Shown piece after piece: positions 17,158 to 25,557 of a DNA stretch of 63,361 bases (the stretch's first letter is position 1; each line of letters begins with the position of its first letter). Made by a program: the position numbers and the translations under genes. The stretch is from an uncultured Eubacteriales bacterium (GTDB taxonomy: Bacteria; Bacillota; Clostridia; Saccharofermentanales; UBA5734), in assembly GCA_903835065.1 (NCBI GenBank), contig CAILLO010000011.1, forward strand, positions 1-63,361. Direction: 5' to 3'. The notes beneath the pieces were generated by a model. It searched no databases, was not told where the DNA came from, and saw only the letters and a list, made by a program, of their open reading frames with translations.

Positions 17158-18216
17158 ATGCTGTCGCGACGGATCACCGAAGACCAGTGCAGACTCCTGT
17201 TCCGGAAGTCCTCCCAGGCGACCGCGGTCGTCCAGGACGACCGGATCGTCCTGTGCAACCCGAGCGCCGAGAAGTTCTGGGGCTACAAGGAAAGCGAGCT
17301 CAGGAAAATCCACTTCCTCGAGCTGACTCTGGCCGAGGACCGCAACCGCGCCCGCCAGGACATGATCAAGCGCCTCGAGGACCGCGAGCCCGTATCGCGG
17401 CCGGTCTACCGGATGCGCCGCCACGACGGCGACGTGTTCTGGGTCGAGTCGGGCGGCATCCGGATCGACTGGGAGGGCGCGCCCGCGTGGCTGGCCTTCT
17501 TCAGCGAAACGAAGACGAAGCTCCGCCACGAGGACCGGGAGAAGGTCCTGGGCGTCCACCTCGAGCCCGGCCTGCCGAAGCCCTCGGGCGACGTTCCGTC
17601 GCCCGTCGCCGCTCCAGCCGCCGTGCCCGCCGCGATTGCCGTACCCGCCGTGTCCGCCGTGTACGCCGTGCCCGCCGCGCAGGCCGCCGACCCGCAGCCG
17701 GTCGCATCCGCGCCCGCCCCGAGCGGCGCCGGAGGACCCGGCCTCGACCCGCTGACCGGCCTGTTCGGCCGCGCCGCCTTCGACGTCGAGCTCAAGCGAA
17801 TCGACAAGGAATCCTTCCTGCCCGTCACGATCCTCCTCGCCGTCCTCGACGACTTCGAGGAGTACCGCGAGCACTTCGGCGACGCCGCGGGCGACGAGCT
17901 GGTCCGCAATTTCGCCGGATTCCTGAAGAAGGAGTGCCGCGAGAGCGACTTCCTCGCCCGGATCGACGAAGAGCGGTTCGCTCTCGTGCTGCCCAGGACG
18001 GACTCGTGGATGGCGGAGGGCCTCGAACGCCGCGTCTCGGAGGACCTCGCCGCGAGCAAGGGCGGCGCCGTGCCGTTCTCCGCGACCTTCGGCAAGCAGA
18101 CGCGCGACAAGATGGACATGGACTTCGACCAGGCGTTCGCGGCCGCATCGGACCGGCTGGACCGCCGGAAGAAGATGCACGAGATCTTCAAGGGCATGCC
18201 GGGAGATATCTTCTAG
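17158..18216 (+). CDS. PAS domain protein with degenerate GGDEF domain
   Basis: A 352-residue cytoplasmic protein. Residues ~10-125 form a PAS domain (VVQDDRIVLCNPSAEKFWGY). Residues ~150-190 are an Ala/Pro/Val-rich linker. Residues ~195-345 form a GGDEF-like domain that starts DPLTGLFGRAAF. The active-site motif is RIDEERFALVLP instead of RxGGDEFxxxLP, so both Gly residues are lost and cyclic-di-GMP synthesis is unlikely. It may act as a sensor or binding scaffold. The start has GAGGGAGGAA upstream. The gene is preceded by an attenuator-like leader. Confidence 0.8.
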   Translation: MLSRRITEDQCRLLFRKSSQATAVVQDDRIVLCNPSAEKFWGYKESELRKIHFLELTLAEDRNRARQDMIKRLEDREPVSRPVYRMRRHDGDVFWVESGGIRIDWEGAPAWLAFFSETKTKLRHEDREKVLGVHLEPGLPKPSGDVPSPVAAPAAVPAAIAVPAVSAVYAVPAAQAADPQPVASAPAPSGAGGPGLDPLTGLFGRAAFDVELKRIDKESFLPVTILLAVLDDFEEYREHFGDAAGDELVRNFAGFLKKECRESDFLARIDEERFALVLPRTDSWMAEGLERRVSEDLAASKGGAVPFSATFGKQTRDKMDMDFDQAFAAASDRLDRRKKMHEIFKGMPGDIF

Positions 18217-18332: not shown

Positions 18333-18362
18333 TTGACATCGCCGAACGGGGCGGTCTATCAT
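18333..18362 (+). promoter_or_regulatory. Promoter of the transglutaminase/Dlt-like operon
   Basis: TTGACA (18333-18338), an 18-base spacer and TATCAT (18357-18362), about 29 bases before the GTG start at 18391. Confidence 0.7.
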
Positions 18363-18390: not shown

Positions 18391-19743
18391 GTGAAGAAGT
18401 CCTCCCCGACCCCGCAGAAACCCTCCGGACGGCCCTCCGCCCCGGTCTCCCCGAATTCGGCGAAGCGACCGGCCCGCAGGAAGGGAGTCGCCCCCCGCGT
18501 TCTCTGGATTTCCGGCGCCTTCGTCCTCGTCGCCGTCTGCGGGATCCTCGCCCTGAACCACTTCCTCAACCCGGGCGTCGTCCGCCGCGTGACGATCGAG
18601 GCCGGCACCGGCGTGCCCGTCGCGGCGCGCTTCGTCTCCAACACCCGGTTCCGCGCCCAGTACGCCTCCGACGTCTCCGGCGTCGACACCTCCACGCCAG
18701 GGACCTATGACCTGAAGATCCTGATCGACGACAAGGAATACGATGTGACGCTCGCCGTGTCCGACACGACCCCGCCGACCGGCGACCCGGCCGAGGCGAG
18801 CACCTGGAAGGGCGAGCCCCTCGACCCGTCCGTCTTCGTGACCGGCCTGAAGGACGCGACCGCCGTGACCGTCGCCTACAAGACGCAGCCCGATTTCGGG
18901 ACGGCCGGCGACCAGACCGTGACGCTCGTGCTGACCGACACCTCCGGCAACACGTCCGAGGTCCAGTCGAAGCTGACCGTCCTCGCCGACACCGAGAAGC
19001 CCGTGATCTCGGGCGTCACGGACCTCAGCGTCTTCGTCGGAGATACGATCGCCTACCGGACCGGCGTGACCGTGACCGACAACCACGACGCGACCGTCAC
19101 GCTCGAGATCGACAATTCCGGAGTGGACCTCACCCGGCCCGGCGCCTATCCCGTCGTCTATTCGGCGACCGATGCGGCCGGCAACCGCGCCGAGGTCACC
19201 GCGACCGTCACCGTGGCCGTCAAGCCGGCGGGCGTTGTCACCTTGGCCGACCTCAACGCCAAGATCGACGAGATCTTCGCCCAGATTCTCAAGCCCGGCA
19301 TGACCGACCTCGATAAAATGAGCGCGATCTTCTACTATATCGCCGACCACATCAACTACACCGGCACGTCCGACAAGAGCGACTGGGTGAAGGCCGCCTA
19401 TTTCGGCATCACGCGCGGCTCGGGCGACTGCTTCAACTACTTCGCCCTCGCCAAGGGCATGCTCACGCGCGCCGGCTACGAGACGATTCCGATCGAGCGC
19501 GTCCCCGCGAAGACGCACCACTTCTGGAACCTCGTGAAGTACAACGGCCAGTGGTACCACTTCGACGCGATGCCCAACCTCAAGTACTACCACTTCGTCT
19601 GCCTGCTCCGGACCGACGCGGAGGTCGCGGCATATTCGGCCAGCAAGGACGCGGAGGGCCTCTTCTACGTCTTCGACCACACGGGGATCCCCGCCACCGC
19701 GACCGTGCCGCTCGATATCGAGCGCAAGGTCATCGATGGCTGA
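18391..19743 (+). CDS. Membrane-anchored transglutaminase-like protein with Ig-like domains
   Basis: A 450-residue protein with a GTG start. A basic N-terminus of about 35 residues and one helix (RVLWISGAFVLVAVCGILAL) anchor it in the membrane. Residues ~60-285 form beta-sandwich repeats of the DUF5011 type (TPGTYDLKILIDDKEYDVTL, DTEKPVISGVTDLSVFVGD, RPGAYPVVYSATDAAGNRAE). Residues ~290-430 are a transglutaminase-like domain with the full catalytic triad: Cys347 in SGDCFNYF, His376/377 in THHFWNLV and Asp392 in HFDAMP. It is first in the operon and overlaps the racemase gene by eight bases. It may cut, crosslink or amidate the extracellular polymer served by the rest of the operon; the substrate is unknown. 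Confidence 0.85.
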   Translation: MKKSSPTPQKPSGRPSAPVSPNSAKRPARRKGVAPRVLWISGAFVLVAVCGILALNHFLNPGVVRRVTIEAGTGVPVAARFVSNTRFRAQYASDVSGVDTSTPGTYDLKILIDDKEYDVTLAVSDTTPPTGDPAEASTWKGEPLDPSVFVTGLKDATAVTVAYKTQPDFGTAGDQTVTLVLTDTSGNTSEVQSKLTVLADTEKPVISGVTDLSVFVGDTIAYRTGVTVTDNHDATVTLEIDNSGVDLTRPGAYPVVYSATDAAGNRAEVTATVTVAVKPAGVVTLADLNAKIDEIFAQILKPGMTDLDKMSAIFYYIADHINYTGTSDKSDWVKAAYFGITRGSGDCFNYFALAKGMLTRAGYETIPIERVPAKTHHFWNLVKYNGQWYHFDAMPNLKYYHFVCLLRTDAEVAAYSASKDAEGLFYVFDHTGIPATATVPLDIERKVIDG

Positions 19744-20467
19744 CCCCGCCCGGAAGACGCTCGGCGTGATCGGGGGCCTCGGGCCCCTCGCGACCGCGCT
19801 TTTCCTCGAGCTGGTGATCCAGATGACCGACGCCGCCTGCGACCAGGAGCACCTCGACATGGTGATCTTCAACACGCCGTCGGTGCCCGACCGCACGCGC
19901 TTTCTGCTCGGCCTGAGCACCGACAGCCCGCTGCCCGGGATGGTCCGGATCGGCCGGGCCCTGTCGGCCGAGGGCTGCCACTGCATCGCCGTGCCCTGCA
20001 TCACCGCGCACGCCTTCTACCGCGAGCTGTCCGAGGCGATCGACCGCCCGATCCTGCACGCGGTGCGCGACACGGCGCGCCACCTGCGCGAGGCCGGCGT
20101 CGTGGCGGCCGGCATCGCCGCCACCGACGGCACGCTGGCCACGGGCCTCTTCCAGGCCGAGTTCGCCGCCGTCGGGATCCGCGCCGTCGTACCGTCCGAG
20201 GACGCGCAGCGCCAGGTGATGAGCATCATCTACGACGATGTGAAGGCCGGGCGTCCGGCCGACCTCGGCAAGTTCGACGCCGTGTCCGACGAACTCCGCC
20301 GCAACGGCGCGGAGGCGGTCGTGCTCGGGTGCACCGAGCTGTCGCTCGTGAAGCGCGAGCGGGAGATCGGCCCGGGGTATCTCGACGCGATGGAGGTCCT
20401 CGCCGCGGAGTCCGTCAGGGCCTGCGGCTATCCCCTGAAGAGCCGCTATCGCAGGCTGCTGGCCTGA
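19736..20467 (+). CDS. Aspartate/glutamate racemase family protein
   Basis: A 243-residue two-domain racemase. The family motifs are GVIGGLGPLAT at the N-terminus, the first catalytic Cys in IAVPCITAHAF (residue ~84), and the second in VLGCTELSLV (residue ~202). The family makes D-Asp or D-Glu without cofactor. Its position between the transglutaminase and the adenylation gene, with an 8-base overlap upstream and a 26-base gap downstream, suggests that it supplies a D-amino acid to the adenylating enzyme. Hydantoin racemase or maleate isomerase activity cannot be excluded. Confidence 0.88.
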   Translation: MADPARKTLGVIGGLGPLATALFLELVIQMTDAACDQEHLDMVIFNTPSVPDRTRFLLGLSTDSPLPGMVRIGRALSAEGCHCIAVPCITAHAFYRELSEAIDRPILHAVRDTARHLREAGVVAAGIAATDGTLATGLFQAEFAAVGIRAVVPSEDAQRQVMSIIYDDVKAGRPADLGKFDAVSDELRRNGAEAVVLGCTELSLVKREREIGPGYLDAMEVLAAESVRACGYPLKSRYRRLLA

Positions 20468-20493
20468 CCACCCGACCCACGAGGAGAACTCCG

Positions 20494-22026
20494 ATGCCCA
20501 ACCACGTGCTGGCCTATCTCGAGCGCACGGCCCCCCGCGTCCCGGACAAGGTCGCCTTCTCCAACGGGACCGACGCCCTGACCTTCCGCGAGGTCCACGA
20601 CCAGAGCCGCGCGATCGGCTCCTTCCTCGCCGGCCGCGGCTTCCACCGGCAGCCCGTCGCCGTCTTCATGAACAAGCACCCGAAGGCGATCGTCGCCTTC
20701 CTCGGCGTCGCCGCCGCCGGCTGCTTCTACGCGCCGATCGACGAGGAGATGCCCGCGTTCCGCATCGAGCTGATCTTCGGGACCCTCTCTCCCGCCGCCG
20801 TGATCTGCGACGCGCGCGGCAAGGCCGCCCTCGAGAAGCTCGCGTTCGCGGGCGAGGTCTTCCTGTACGACGAGATCCGAAGCACCCCCGTCGACGATGC
20901 GGCGCTCGCAGCCGTGCGCGCCCGCCACGTCGACACCGACCCGCTCTACGTCGTCTTCACTTCCGGCTCGACCGGCGTTCCCAAGGGCGTCGTCGCCTGC
21001 CACCGCTCCGTGATCGAGTACGTCGAGGTGCTGTCCGAGACGCTCGGCTTCTCCGAGGAGACCGTCTTCGGCATGCAGGTGCCGCTCTACTTCGACGCCT
21101 GCCTGAAGGAGATCTTCCCGACGCTGATGTTCGGCGCGACGACCTATCTCGTCCCGAAGAACCTCTTCATGTTCCCGGTCAAGCTCGTCGAGTTCCTGGA
21201 CCGGTACAGGGTGAACACCGTGTGCTGGGTCGTCTCGGCGCTCACCATGATCTCGGCCTTCGGCACCTTCGAGAAGGCGGTCCCCGAGACGCTCACGACC
21301 GTCGCCTTCGGCAGCGAGGTGTTCCCGCTCCGCCAGCTGGACCTCTGGCGCAAGGCGCTCCCGCGCGCGAAATTCACCAACTTGTACGGGCCGACCGAGG
21401 CGACCGGGATGACCTGCTTCTACCACGTCGACCGCGAGTTCGGAGAAGGCGAGTCCGTGCCGATCGGCCGGCCGTTCCCCAACCGCGAGGTGATCCTGCT
21501 CGACGACGACGACAAGGTGCCCGCGCCCGGCGGCATCGGCGAGATCTGCGTCCGCGGCACTTCGGTCACGCTCGGCTACTACCGGTCCCCGGACAGGACC
21601 GCCGCCTCCTTCGTCCAGAACCCGCTCCACGCCGACTACCCCGAGACGATCTACCGCACCGGCGACCTGGGGCGGTACAACGAGCGCGGCGAACTGCTGT
21701 TCGTGTCGCGCAAGGACTACCAGATCAAGCACATGGGCCACCGCATCGAACTCGGCGAAATCGAGGCCGACGTCCAGCTCGTGGACGGGGTGCGGCTCGC
21801 CTGCTGCGTCTACGACAAGGAGAGCGAGCGGATCGTGCTGTACTACGTCGGGGAGATCGCCCCGGCCGACCTGCTCGTCGAGCTGCGCGCCCGCCTGCCG
21901 CGCTACATGCTGCCCAACGCCGTCGAACCGCTCGACGCGCTGCCGCTGACGGCCAACGCCAAGATTGACCGGGTCTCCCTCATGACCTACACTGAGCGGA
22001 AAAGGAAGGAGAGCCGGAATGGATGA
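20494..22026 (+). CDS. Amino acid adenylation enzyme (DltA-like)
   Basis: A 510-residue stand-alone adenylation enzyme. It activates a carboxylic acid with ATP and loads it on a carrier protein. The core motifs are FTSGSTGVPKG (155-165), NLYGPTEATG, YRTGDLGRYN, the hinge DYQIKHMGHRIELGEIE and the C-terminal catalytic Lys in NAKIDR. Asp201 in the YFDACLKEIF block sits where NRPS and DltA enzymes bind the alpha-amino group, so the substrate is probably an amino acid. The local sequence does not match the D-Ala pocket of DltA that I know. GAGGAGAA precedes the ATG. The stop overlaps the carrier gene by eight bases. Confidence 0.88.
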   Translation: MPNHVLAYLERTAPRVPDKVAFSNGTDALTFREVHDQSRAIGSFLAGRGFHRQPVAVFMNKHPKAIVAFLGVAAAGCFYAPIDEEMPAFRIELIFGTLSPAAVICDARGKAALEKLAFAGEVFLYDEIRSTPVDDAALAAVRARHVDTDPLYVVFTSGSTGVPKGVVACHRSVIEYVEVLSETLGFSEETVFGMQVPLYFDACLKEIFPTLMFGATTYLVPKNLFMFPVKLVEFLDRYRVNTVCWVVSALTMISAFGTFEKAVPETLTTVAFGSEVFPLRQLDLWRKALPRAKFTNLYGPTEATGMTCFYHVDREFGEGESVPIGRPFPNREVILLDDDDKVPAPGGIGEICVRGTSVTLGYYRSPDRTAASFVQNPLHADYPETIYRTGDLGRYNERGELLFVSRKDYQIKHMGHRIELGEIEADVQLVDGVRLACCVYDKESERIVLYYVGEIAPADLLVELRARLPRYMLPNAVEPLDALPLTANAKIDRVSLMTYTERKRKESRNG

Positions 22027-22246
22027 ACTCCTCAGGATCCTGACGAAGCTCCACCCCGACGTCGACTTCACGGGCCGCGCCGACCTGATCGACGCCGGCG
22101 TGCTCGATTCGTTCGACATCATCTCCCTCGTCGCCGAGGTCGATTCCGTGTTCGACGTGCGGATCCCCGCCGAGGAGATCGTGCCCGAGAACTTCAACTC
22201 CGCCGTCGCTCTCTACGCGATGATCCAGCGTCTGGCCGACGAGTAG
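22019..22246 (+). CDS. Acyl/aminoacyl carrier protein (DltC-like)
   Basis: A 75-residue carrier protein. Ser31 in GVLDSFDIISLV is the 4'-phosphopantetheine attachment site, and the four-helix layout is complete. It overlaps the adenylation gene by eight bases and is followed 18 bases later by the MBOAT gene. This gives the Dlt-type partner set, with carrier and transferase genes in swapped order compared with the usual dltABCD. Confidence 0.9.
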   Translation: MDELLRILTKLHPDVDFTGRADLIDAGVLDSFDIISLVAEVDSVFDVRIPAEEIVPENFNSAVALYAMIQRLADE

Positions 22247-22264
22247 GGCGGGGACGTAGCGACC

Positions 22265-23872
22265 GTGCTGTTCACCTCGTACGCGTTCGTCGCCTTCGTC
22301 GCCGTCGTGGCGGTGCTCTACTACGTGCTTCCGAAGAAGGCGCAGTGGCCGCTGCTGCTGCTCGCGAGCTACGTCTTCTACTTTATCGCCGGCCCCTCCT
22401 TCCTGATCTACATCACCGCGACGGTCGTCTCCACCTGGTACGCCGGCCTGCGCATCGGCCGGATCGGGGCCGCCCACGCCGCGGACGCCGAAGCGGGGAA
22501 GGCGACCCGCTCGAAGGAGGACCGCAAGGCCGTCAAGGCGAAGGCCAAGGCGAAGGCCAAGGCGAAGCAGCGCGCATGGCTCGTCGCGTGCCTGCTCTTC
22601 AACTTCGGCATCCTCGCGGTCGTGAAGTACTCCAACTTCGCGATCTTCAACGTGAACTCGCTGCTCGCCGCGTTCGGTTCGCCGGACAAGCTGTCGTTCC
22701 TCACGATCGCCCTGCCGATGGGCATCTCGTTCTACACCTTCAAGACGATGTCCTACCTGATCGACCTCTACCGCGGCAAGTTCCCCGCCGAGCGCAACGT
22801 CTTCCGACTCGCGCTGTTCACGTCGTTCTTCCCGCAGCTCGTCCAGGGCCCGATCTCCCGCTTCGACGACCTGTCGAAGTCGCTGTTCGAGGAGCACCGC
22901 TTCGACCGCCGCGTCGTGCTGTCCGGCCTGCAGCGCATCCTCTGGGGGTTCTTCAAGAAGCTCGTGATCGCCGACCGCATCCTCGCCGGCGTGACGACGC
23001 TGATCAAGAACCCCGACCAGTACACGGGCGCGTTCGTCCTCGTCGGCATGCTCTTCTACGCGCTGCAGCTCTACGCCGACTTCACGGGCGGCATCGACAT
23101 CACGATCGGCATCTCCGAGATGCTCGGCATCAAGGTCGCGGAGAACTTCAACGCGCCGTTCCTTTCCCGGAACATCACCGATTACTGGCGCCGCTGGCAC
23201 ATCACCATGGGCACCTGGTTCCGCGACTACATCTTCTACCCGATGTCCGTGGCCCAACCGATGCTCCGGCTGTCCCGCTGGTGCCGCGAGAAGCTCGGCG
23301 AGGGCTTCGGCAAGCGCGTCACCGTCTACATGGCGACGATCGTGACCTGGTTCGCGACCGGCATCTGGCACGGCAGCAGCTGGAACTTCATCGCCTGGGG
23401 CCTCGCGAACGGCTTCGTCATCATCCTCTCCCACGAGTGCGAGCCGCTCTACAAGCGCTTCCACGCGCGGTTCCACTGGAAGGGGAAGCCCGCCTACACC
23501 GCCTTCGAGGTCGTGCGCACGGTGCTGCTGATGAGCTCGATCCGCCTGTTCGACTGCTACCGCGACGTGCCGCTCACGTTCCGCATGTTCGGCACGATGT
23601 TCACGACCTTCAACTACGGCCGCCTCTTCGACGGCACGCTGCTGAAGATCGGACTGTCCGGCGCGGACTACGCCGTCCTCGGCGTCGGCCTCGCCGTCCT
23701 GATCGGCAGCCGCGTCGTCAAGGACCGCACCGGCGACTTCCGCGAGCGGCTCGCGGCGGGTCCCGCCTGGGTGCGCACGGCGGCGACCTTCGCCCTGATC
23801 CTCGCGATCCTGGTCCTCGGCGCGTACGGGATCGGCTACGATGCGAAGCAGTTCATCTACAACCAGTTCTAG
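22265..23872 (+). CDS. MBOAT membrane acyltransferase (DltB/AlgI-like)
   Basis: A 535-residue protein with about eleven membrane helices and a GTG start. It is a membrane-bound O-acyltransferase: DYWRRWHITMGTWFRDYIF contains His312, and the conserved His369 is in TGIWHGSSWNFIAWG. In Dlt systems the homologous protein takes the aminoacyl group from the carrier and passes it across the membrane. A Lys/Ala-rich loop (residues ~78-103) should be cytoplasmic. It lies 18 bases after the carrier gene and ten bases before the SGNH-like gene. Confidence 0.9.
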   Translation: MLFTSYAFVAFVAVVAVLYYVLPKKAQWPLLLLASYVFYFIAGPSFLIYITATVVSTWYAGLRIGRIGAAHAADAEAGKATRSKEDRKAVKAKAKAKAKAKQRAWLVACLLFNFGILAVVKYSNFAIFNVNSLLAAFGSPDKLSFLTIALPMGISFYTFKTMSYLIDLYRGKFPAERNVFRLALFTSFFPQLVQGPISRFDDLSKSLFEEHRFDRRVVLSGLQRILWGFFKKLVIADRILAGVTTLIKNPDQYTGAFVLVGMLFYALQLYADFTGGIDITIGISEMLGIKVAENFNAPFLSRNITDYWRRWHITMGTWFRDYIFYPMSVAQPMLRLSRWCREKLGEGFGKRVTVYMATIVTWFATGIWHGSSWNFIAWGLANGFVIILSHECEPLYKRFHARFHWKGKPAYTAFEVVRTVLLMSSIRLFDCYRDVPLTFRMFGTMFTTFNYGRLFDGTLLKIGLSGADYAVLGVGLAVLIGSRVVKDRTGDFRERLAAGPAWVRTAATFALILAILVLGAYGIGYDAKQFIYNQF

Positions 23873-23882
23873 GGAGGGCGGG

Positions 23883-24956
23883 ATGAAGAGACTCCGGTCC
23901 ATCGGCTTCTCCGTCGTCGCCGCGGTCCTGTGCATCGCGGTCCTGTGGCTCGCGACGCGCCTCGTCGTCCCCAAGTACGACACCGGCATCGTCGAGGGGA
24001 ACCTGACCGCCGAGTACTACCAGGAGACGACGAAGCACGATGTGATCTTCATCGGTGACTGCGAGGTCTACGAGACGTTCTCGCCGATCACGCTCTGGGA
24101 GAAGTACGGCATCACGAGCTACATACGGGGCAACGCCCAGCAGCTGATGTGGCAGTCCTACTCCATGCTCGAGGACACGCTGCGGACCGAGAAGCCCAAG
24201 GTCGTCGTCCTCGGGGTCATCGGGATGAAATACGACACGCCCCAGAAGGAGACGTACAACCGAATGACCCTCGACGGCATGCGCTGGTCCGCCGCGAAGG
24301 TCGGGGCGATCGAGGCCTCGAGGATGCCGAACGAGAGCTTCGTCGACTACCTGTTCCCGCTGCTCCGCTACCATTCCCGCTGGAGCGCGCTGACGGCGTC
24401 CGACCTGAAGTATCTGTTCACGCGTCCGAAGCTGTTCAACAACGGCTACTACATGCGCGTCGACGTGAAGCCCGCGACGACGGTCCTGGTCGGCAAGAAG
24501 CTCCCCGACTACGATTTCGGCGCCAACGCCTACCAGTACCTCGACAGGATCGTGCAGCTCTGCAAGGACGACGGCATCGAGCTGATCCTCAACAAGGCGC
24601 CCGTGATCTACCCGTACTGGTACCCCGAGTGGGACAAGCAGATGGTCGACTACGCCGCGGCGCACGGCATCGCCTACTACAACTTCCTCGCCGAGAAGGA
24701 CGCGATCGGCATCGACCTCTCCACCGACACCTACGATGCAGGACTCCACCTGAACCTCTCGGGCGTCGAGAAGCTGTCGACCCGCCTCGGGGCGATCCTC
24801 TCCCAGGACTTCGGCGTGCCCGACCGCCGCTCGGATGCGACGCTCGCCGCCGACTACGCGAAGAAGGTCGCGTTCTACGACGCGATGCGCGACCGCCAGC
24901 TCGCCGAGATCGCCCAGTACGGGCACGTCCTGGGCTTCGGAGCTCCGGCGCAGTAG
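23883..24956 (+). CDS. SGNH/GDSL-like extracytoplasmic protein, possible DltD counterpart
   Basis: A 357-residue protein with one N-terminal helix (SIGFSVVAAVLCIAVLWLAT) and a large outer domain. Block I of the SGNH fold appears as VIFIGDCEVYE, with Cys60 at the position of the nucleophilic Ser. The distal pair is present in DAGLHLNLSG (Asp285 and His289). The family is usually annotated as SGNH/GDSL hydrolase and is found next to MBOAT genes. By analogy with DltD it would complete transfer of the aminoacyl group to the cell-surface acceptor. It is the last gene of the operon; the next gene has its own promoter. Confidence 0.8.
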   Translation: MKRLRSIGFSVVAAVLCIAVLWLATRLVVPKYDTGIVEGNLTAEYYQETTKHDVIFIGDCEVYETFSPITLWEKYGITSYIRGNAQQLMWQSYSMLEDTLRTEKPKVVVLGVIGMKYDTPQKETYNRMTLDGMRWSAAKVGAIEASRMPNESFVDYLFPLLRYHSRWSALTASDLKYLFTRPKLFNNGYYMRVDVKPATTVLVGKKLPDYDFGANAYQYLDRIVQLCKDDGIELILNKAPVIYPYWYPEWDKQMVDYAAAHGIAYYNFLAEKDAIGIDLSTDTYDAGLHLNLSGVEKLSTRLGAILSQDFGVPDRRSDATLAADYAKKVAFYDAMRDRQLAEIAQYGHVLGFGAPAQ

Positions 24957-25032: not shown

Positions 25033-25557
25033 ATGAAGAGAACCCTCCTCCTCGCCGCCCTCCTCGCCGCAGCCCTCGCGCTGCCGCTCTCCGCCTGCGG
25101 AGCCGCGCCCACCGGCCCCTCCGCCACCGGCGCCCCGACCGCGACCCCCGCCGCCGCCGCGGGCTACGCCTTCGTCGTCAAGGGCACGACGATCGCGATG
25201 CACGCAGAAGCCGCCCCGATTCTCGCGAAGCTGGGCGACCCCAAGGAATACTTCGAAGCCCCGAGCTGCGCATTCCAGGGCACGGAGAAATCCTACGTGT
25301 ACTCCGGATTCAAGGTGACGACCTACGAACTCGACGGCAAGGACCACATCGCCTCCGTCCTGGTCCTCGACGACTCGATCGCCACCCCGGAGGGCGTCTT
25401 CCTCGGCGCGACGCTCGACGATGTCACGAAGGCCTACGGCACCGCGTACGCACAGAACCTCGGCCTCTACACCTACACGTCCGGGAAGATGACCCTCGCC
25501 TTCCTGCTCGAGAACGGGAAGGTCACCTCGATCGAGTACGCCGCTTCGGCGTCCTGA
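25033..25557 (+). CDS. Lipoprotein of unknown function
   Basis: A 174-residue protein with a signal peptide ending in the lipobox LSAC (Cys21), then a Pro/Thr/Ala-rich linker and a soluble domain of about 125 residues. The domain (GYAFVVKGTTIAMHAEAAPI, LGDPKEYFEAPSCAFQG, YTYTSGKMTLAFLLENGKVT) is the layout of small secreted clostridial lipoproteins annotated only as hypothetical. AGGAAAGGAAC lies before the ATG. It is not recognised beyond that. Confidence 0.75.
   Translation: MKRTLLLAALLAAALALPLSACGAAPTGPSATGAPTATPAAAAGYAFVVKGTTIAMHAEAAPILAKLGDPKEYFEAPSCAFQGTEKSYVYSGFKVTTYELDGKDHIASVLVLDDSIATPEGVFLGATLDDVTKAYGTAYAQNLGLYTYTSGKMTLAFLLENGKVTSIEYAASAS

Follow-up and report, generated by a model that had tools for sequence, protein, structure and literature searches.

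The locus raises the question of what is attached, and to what, by a gene cassette that has the central roles of teichoic-acid D-alanylation and also encodes an amino acid racemase and a transglutaminase-like protein. The Dlt pathway (DltA, DltC, DltB, DltX and DltD) has in common with the cassette an adenylation enzyme, a carrier protein, an MBOAT protein and an SGNH-fold protein. Known Dlt-type surface aminoacylation adds D-Ala, leaving the surface less negative. The cassette lies in the window, the whole stretch of 63,361 nucleotides that was analysed. Its logic is that of Dlt, but by sequence it does not belong to Dlt. The reading favoured here, with a probability of roughly one half, is that it directs a Dlt-like decoration outside the membrane in which the added group is an acidic amino acid, D-aspartate being the most likely.

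Organization and spread of the cassette

An ORF check of the window recovers the six cassette genes of the earlier note, all on the + strand and with coordinates unchanged. These and the associated features are as follows.

18333–18362, + strand: candidate sigma-70-like promoter site TTGACA-18-TATCAT, identified by consensus match alone (11 of 12 positions)
18391–19743, + strand: transglutaminase-like protein (TG), membrane-anchored (N-terminal transmembrane segment by eye), with Ig-like/Rib repeats (PF01841, 4.4e-9; PF16403, 2.2e-9)
19736–20467, + strand: Asp-type amino acid racemase (RAC) with Cys88 and Cys199 (Asp_Glu_race, 4.9e-35; TIGR00035)
20494–22026, + strand: free-standing amino-acid adenylation enzyme (ADE; AMP-binding, 6.8e-67)
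21106–21108, + strand: codon of ADE Lys205, equivalent by alignment to GrsA position 239 and DltA Met201
22019–22246, + strand: carrier protein (ACP) with phosphopantetheine Ser31 in LDSFD (PF00550, PP-binding)
22265–23872, + strand: MBOAT acyltransferase with His312 (RRWHITMG) and His369 (WHGSSWNF) (PF03062, 3.9e-14)
23852–23869, + strand: FIYNQF acyl-shuttle motif, C-terminal and fused to the MBOAT (FxYxxF-type end in relatives)
23883–24956, + strand: predicted SGNH-fold extracytoplasmic acyltransferase with Cys60 at the nucleophile position, His289 and Asp285 (AlphaFold2 model, fold search)
25033–25557, + strand: small conserved lipoprotein (LP) with lipobox LSAC and an invariant SCA..G motif (alignment, model)

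The TG and RAC genes overlap by 8 bases, as do those of ADE and ACP, and no intergenic gap within the six-gene block exceeds 30 bases. Between the end of the candidate promoter site and the first start codon of the cassette lie 28 bases; the region contains two sigma-70-like sites, where 0.5 would be expected. The description of six tightly packed genes behind one promoter-like site is thus borne out by the ORFs and by the single 11/12 site upstream, and the residues that the earlier note had named (ADE Asp201, ACP Ser31, MBOAT His312 and His369) are correct. Its inventory holds for the six genes but had overlooked the Cys at the SGNH nucleophile position and a seventh conserved gene, that of the lipoprotein, which starts 76 bases after the block and is conserved with the other six. 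A PAS-GGDEF protein is encoded directly upstream on the same strand (window 17158–18216) and did not turn up regularly beside the cassette in the loci examined.

The MBOAT and adenylation genes were traced at genus, family, order and class level, together with named clostridial metagenome genomes; the resulting clade set comprises 104 distinct adenylation enzymes with at least 50% identity to the window ADE, identical copies removed. Within an even sample of the class the cassette clade is present in 41 of 391 genomes, about a tenth, and the core genes co-occur in conserved order across many families. The order ADE-ACP-MBOAT(-SGNH) is kept throughout the loci with sufficient downstream DNA, some of which have inserted genes. 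Those of one genus (AraC, MutS-like, AIRS and Zn-ribbon, between ADE and ACP or after the MBOAT) appear to have no connection with the cassette and give no clue to the acceptor. The matching of roles to Dlt in a changed order, A-C-B-D, therefore recurs in related genomes as had been claimed and is not an accident of the window genome. The survey for the full six-gene order gives a more divided result: alongside the core order, TG is present in 89 of the 92 loci with sufficient upstream DNA, which establishes it as a conserved member, but RAC is present in only 64 of these and absent from 28. The cassette, with seven genes including LP, is real, widespread among clostridia and apparently undescribed; a search confined to the open literature found no published description of it.

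The adenylation pocket and the racemase

The ADE pocket is lined by D201, A202, K205, C244, A271, G273, L297, G305, M306 and K490, giving the code DAKCAGLGM(K), in which Asp201 and Lys205 are equivalent to Asp197 and Met201 of DltA by alignment to 3fcc. The same ten aligned positions read DLMILCTVA(K) in DltA proteins from the same class (L304 and L305, both above the DltA cut-off), in agreement with the earlier claim that the pocket does not resemble that of D-Ala DltA. The amino-group-binding Asp at position 235 is present in 104/104 distinct clade members, while position 239 is basic in all of them (102 Lys, 2 Arg), compared with Met or other non-basic residues in DltA proteins; no code position other than D235 is acidic. 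Of the three DltA proteins above the TIGR01734 cut-off, two (L304, L305) have Cys at position 301, which is Gly in ADE. Scored against family models, ADE fails as DltA (257 against a cut-off of 559.85 for TIGR01734, 259.5 against 476 for NF003417) and passes the amino-acid adenylation domain model TIGR01733 (330.5 against 317.4). Similarly, ACP retains the carrier Ser and fails the DltC models NF003464 and TIGR01688 (32.5 against 68 and 22 against 52.35), and the MBOAT fails the DltB model TIGR04091 (165.8 against 375) and passes PF03062 (53.1 against 27). These cut-offs, together with the non-D-Ala pocket (Lys at 239, Gly at 301), rule out membership of the canonical D-alanylation system. For a pocket with Lys or Arg at 239 and no acidic code residue except D235, an acidic substrate side chain is the simplest partner; the ADE substrate is likely an acidic amino acid, and D-Asp is probably the best single guess. 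In free-standing ligases the pocket code is an unreliable guide to specificity, and the usual code for Asp has its Lys at 278.

RAC belongs to the aspartate racemase subfamily TIGR00035 (190.7 bits, cut-off 93.1) and just passes the model of the cysteate racemase CuyB, NF052483 (196.4, cut-off 190). Its best PDB match is the P. horikoshii aspartate racemase 1jfl (7e-50), and the catalytic pair Cys88 and Cys199 is invariant in 15/15 aligned sequences. A TIGR00035 racemase is encoded in 37 of the 41 cassette genomes and in 79 of the 350 others (odds ratio 32, Fisher p 1e-17, kinship ignored). Eleven genomes combine a standard or K-to-R pocket with a locus devoid of RAC, and eight of these have a TIGR00035 racemase gene outside the locus, which in G268 is interrupted. 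The cassette genomes without any such racemase are G201, G289 and G501, which belong to one genus and have the standard pocket, and G552. A quick tree places the locus racemases together in a single clade (76 of 80, with 2 relocated copies), while loci L225/L231 and L253 hold racemases from outside it; on this tree, other racemases have been freshly recruited into the locus about twice. The proposal of a built-in racemase for D-Asp or D-Glu thus stands in part: the enzyme is of the Asp type and statistically tied to the cassette, but it is missing from almost a third of the loci, and D-Glu is the less likely product because MurI supplies D-Glu anyway and RAC is Asp-like.

A clade of 14 rows displays the remodelled pocket DAKCGGLGV, and here RAC is missing from 12/12 loci with sufficient upstream DNA; a search of five of its genomes gave no TIGR00035 member and at most weak, MurI-like matches. 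Pocket change and racemase loss map to the same well-supported branch and thus represent one event, not a statistic; as a general rule their association was rejected, the independent pairs on the tree being too few. Enzymes with the DAKCGGLGV pocket would probably use a related substrate, D-Glu or an L-amino acid, for which a dedicated racemase is unnecessary. Loci of this clade (L061, L082, L167-L169, L172, L173, L175 and L178) have up to three tandem transglutaminase-like paralogues instead of one.

The same observations bear on a serious though unlikely alternative, in which the pathway would carry glutamate (D-Glu from MurI, or L-Glu) and the racemase would be a broad Asp/Glu enzyme or meet some other need. 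K239 and A236 resemble the non-ribosomal code for Glu, DAKDLGVVDK, with its Lys at 239; the pocket codes of clade-2 relatives, which include DAKDMLLGD and DSKDMCIVD, are even nearer to it, and clade-2 relatives with no such racemase in the locus also have K239. The existence of racemase-free cassette members fits glutamate as well, but a dedicated and repeatedly recruited TIGR00035 enzyme would be unneeded where MurI already makes D-Glu, and an aspartate racemase, 1jfl, is the nearest to RAC. More doubtful is that the pathway handles another amino acid, either small, neutral and of D-configuration or sulfonated, such as D-cysteate: the invariant Lys or Arg of the pocket and the replacement by Gly of the DltA Cys at 301 (L304, L305) argue against it, set against a RAC score above the cysteate-racemase cut-off, the roomy pocket afforded by A271 and G273 and the use of D-Ala by DltA relatives elsewhere. 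It is improbable that the core is a drifted ordinary D-alanylation or glycylation system with the racemase and the transglutaminase as mere neighbours of convenience since, although the loci that lack RAC and an association that may partly reflect kinship would suit it, TG is nearly constant (89/92), racemases are newly recruited at the locus and retained elsewhere in the genome, the DltA, DltB and DltC cut-offs are all failed, and the cassette has zero overlap with the 17 DltA-like genomes of the same sample (only about 2 expected).

Proteins of transfer and of the cell surface

The ACP DS motif is found in 99/99 clade members, and the aligned clade MBOATs have the RWH and WHG motifs. The window MBOAT is the only MBOAT match in its genome assembly. 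A C-terminal end of the FxYxxF type is present in 94/94 clade MBOATs; in DltX and PatA the Tyr of this motif delivers the acyl group to its SGNH partner, and other MBOAT/SGNH systems operate without a carrier protein (PMC12148441). The cassette, with the shuttle motif fused to its MBOAT and a carrier protein as donor, is a mix of two known designs. With Dlt it shares, by analogy, the relay from MBOAT through a Tyr motif to an SGNH protein, although in Dlt the motif resides in the separate DltX. With PatA/PatB and AlgI-type O-acetylation it shares the C-terminal FxYxxF of the MBOAT and the SGNH partner; in contrast, the donor in those systems is acetyl-CoA, whereas a carrier-bound aminoacyl group is predicted here.

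The window SGNH protein has no Pfam match at 0.001, and a PDB profile search with the family alignment gave no match, whereas a fold search (VIA) with its AlphaFold2 model (pLDDT 87.7) matched SGNH enzymes with Z scores of 11.1–13.1 over 162–202 aligned residues, including PatB (11.3) and DltD (7dxm, 11.1). Among 24 family members, 21 match Lipase_GDSL_2 weakly and the DltD family (PF04914) is absent from the Pfam matches at E up to 1, the likeness to DltD being in fold alone. The nucleophile position in block I is Cys in 85/85 proteins and not the Ser typical of SGNH enzymes, including that of Dlt and the PatB-type partners, and Asp285 and His289 are invariant in the aligned proteins. Ser occurs in the outgroups, which are the SGNH neighbours from related cassettes that have a different adenylation enzyme. 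A Cys nucleophile would imply a thioester intermediate, which would allow amides to be formed besides esters.

TG combines Transglut_core with Bact_surface_Ig-like domains (Pfam), and its triad Cys347, His377 and Asp392 is invariant in 15/15 aligned sequences; with this C-H-D triad it could be a peptidase or amidase, and the crosslinking that the earlier note had suggested is not supported. The model of LP shows weak similarity in fold comparison to DUF4309 YjgB and to YfeY. The racemase, TG and LP are all additions relative to Dlt.

Proposed pathway, acceptor and variant cassettes

According to the favoured reading, decoration with D-aspartate, RAC, a member of the aspartate racemase family, would convert L-Asp to D-Asp in the cytoplasm. 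ADE would adenylate D-Asp, whose amino group would be bound by Asp201 and whose side-chain carboxylate by Lys205, and load it as a thioester on the Ser31-phosphopantetheine of ACP. By the example of DltX and PatA, the MBOAT would then pass the aminoacyl group across the membrane to the Tyr of its own FIYNQF, which would replace a separate DltX. The SGNH protein, with its predicted fold and invariant Cys, would accept the group on Cys60 and pass it to a surface acceptor, where TG and LP, conserved members of the cassette, would act outside on the acceptor or the product. A parallel is provided by the racD-aslA pathway for D-Asp crossbridges in lactic acid bacteria, where an aspartate racemase is encoded in an operon with the enzyme that attaches D-Asp (PMC4155827). 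The dedicated racemase beside the attaching enzyme corresponds to what is proposed for the cassette, but there the attachment is by a cytoplasmic ATP-grasp ligase, as against adenylation, a carrier and trans-membrane transfer.

The LtaS-type sulfatase (PF00884) and the TagB/F family (PF04464) have no match in this 98% complete assembly, a further difference from Dlt on which a teichoic-acid acceptor was rejected. The genome encodes five LCP proteins, so some wall glycopolymer is likely attached. Taken together, these findings make a wall glycopolymer other than classical teichoic acid the likeliest acceptor, with peptidoglycan or protein also possible. The most specific form of the proposal is put forward tentatively: a widespread clostridial envelope modification in which D-Asp would travel by the ACP-MBOAT relay onto a non-teichoic surface polymer or a peptidoglycan amine, joined in an amide or ester by the Cys-dependent SGNH enzyme, with TG acting on the product. 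If true, an acidic D-amino acid would shift surface charge in the direction opposite to D-Ala and alter the encounters of gut and rumen clostridia with cationic peptides, metals and hosts. The modification would moreover define an SGNH transferase family working through cysteine, and provide a concrete source and use of D-Asp in about a tenth of the class genomes sampled.

Variant cassettes depart from this scheme at the adenylation step. Locus L091 (4935–11512) shares TG, ACP, MBOAT, Cys-SGNH and LP with the cassette but has a distant adenylation enzyme of code DVHFFAMYV and lacks a racemase; the racemase is gone where the DAK pocket is gone, and the swap suggests that the transfer machinery can serve another amino acid, both from a single case. 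This cassette is followed by a Peptidase_M15_4 lipoprotein. The distant clade-2 adenylation enzymes L086-L089, L094, L095 and L102, most of them with the code DVK(I/T)(M/L)S(L/I)CN, are accompanied by a carrier and possibly represent a carrier-loading system of a different kind; a PLP decarboxylase of the ornithine/DAP type (PF02784) adjoins some of them, as shown for L088 and L095. In L093, L096, L097 and L259, Ser replaces the amino-group-binding Asp, and these enzymes, which keep carrier and often MBOAT neighbours, may act on a substrate without an alpha-amino group.
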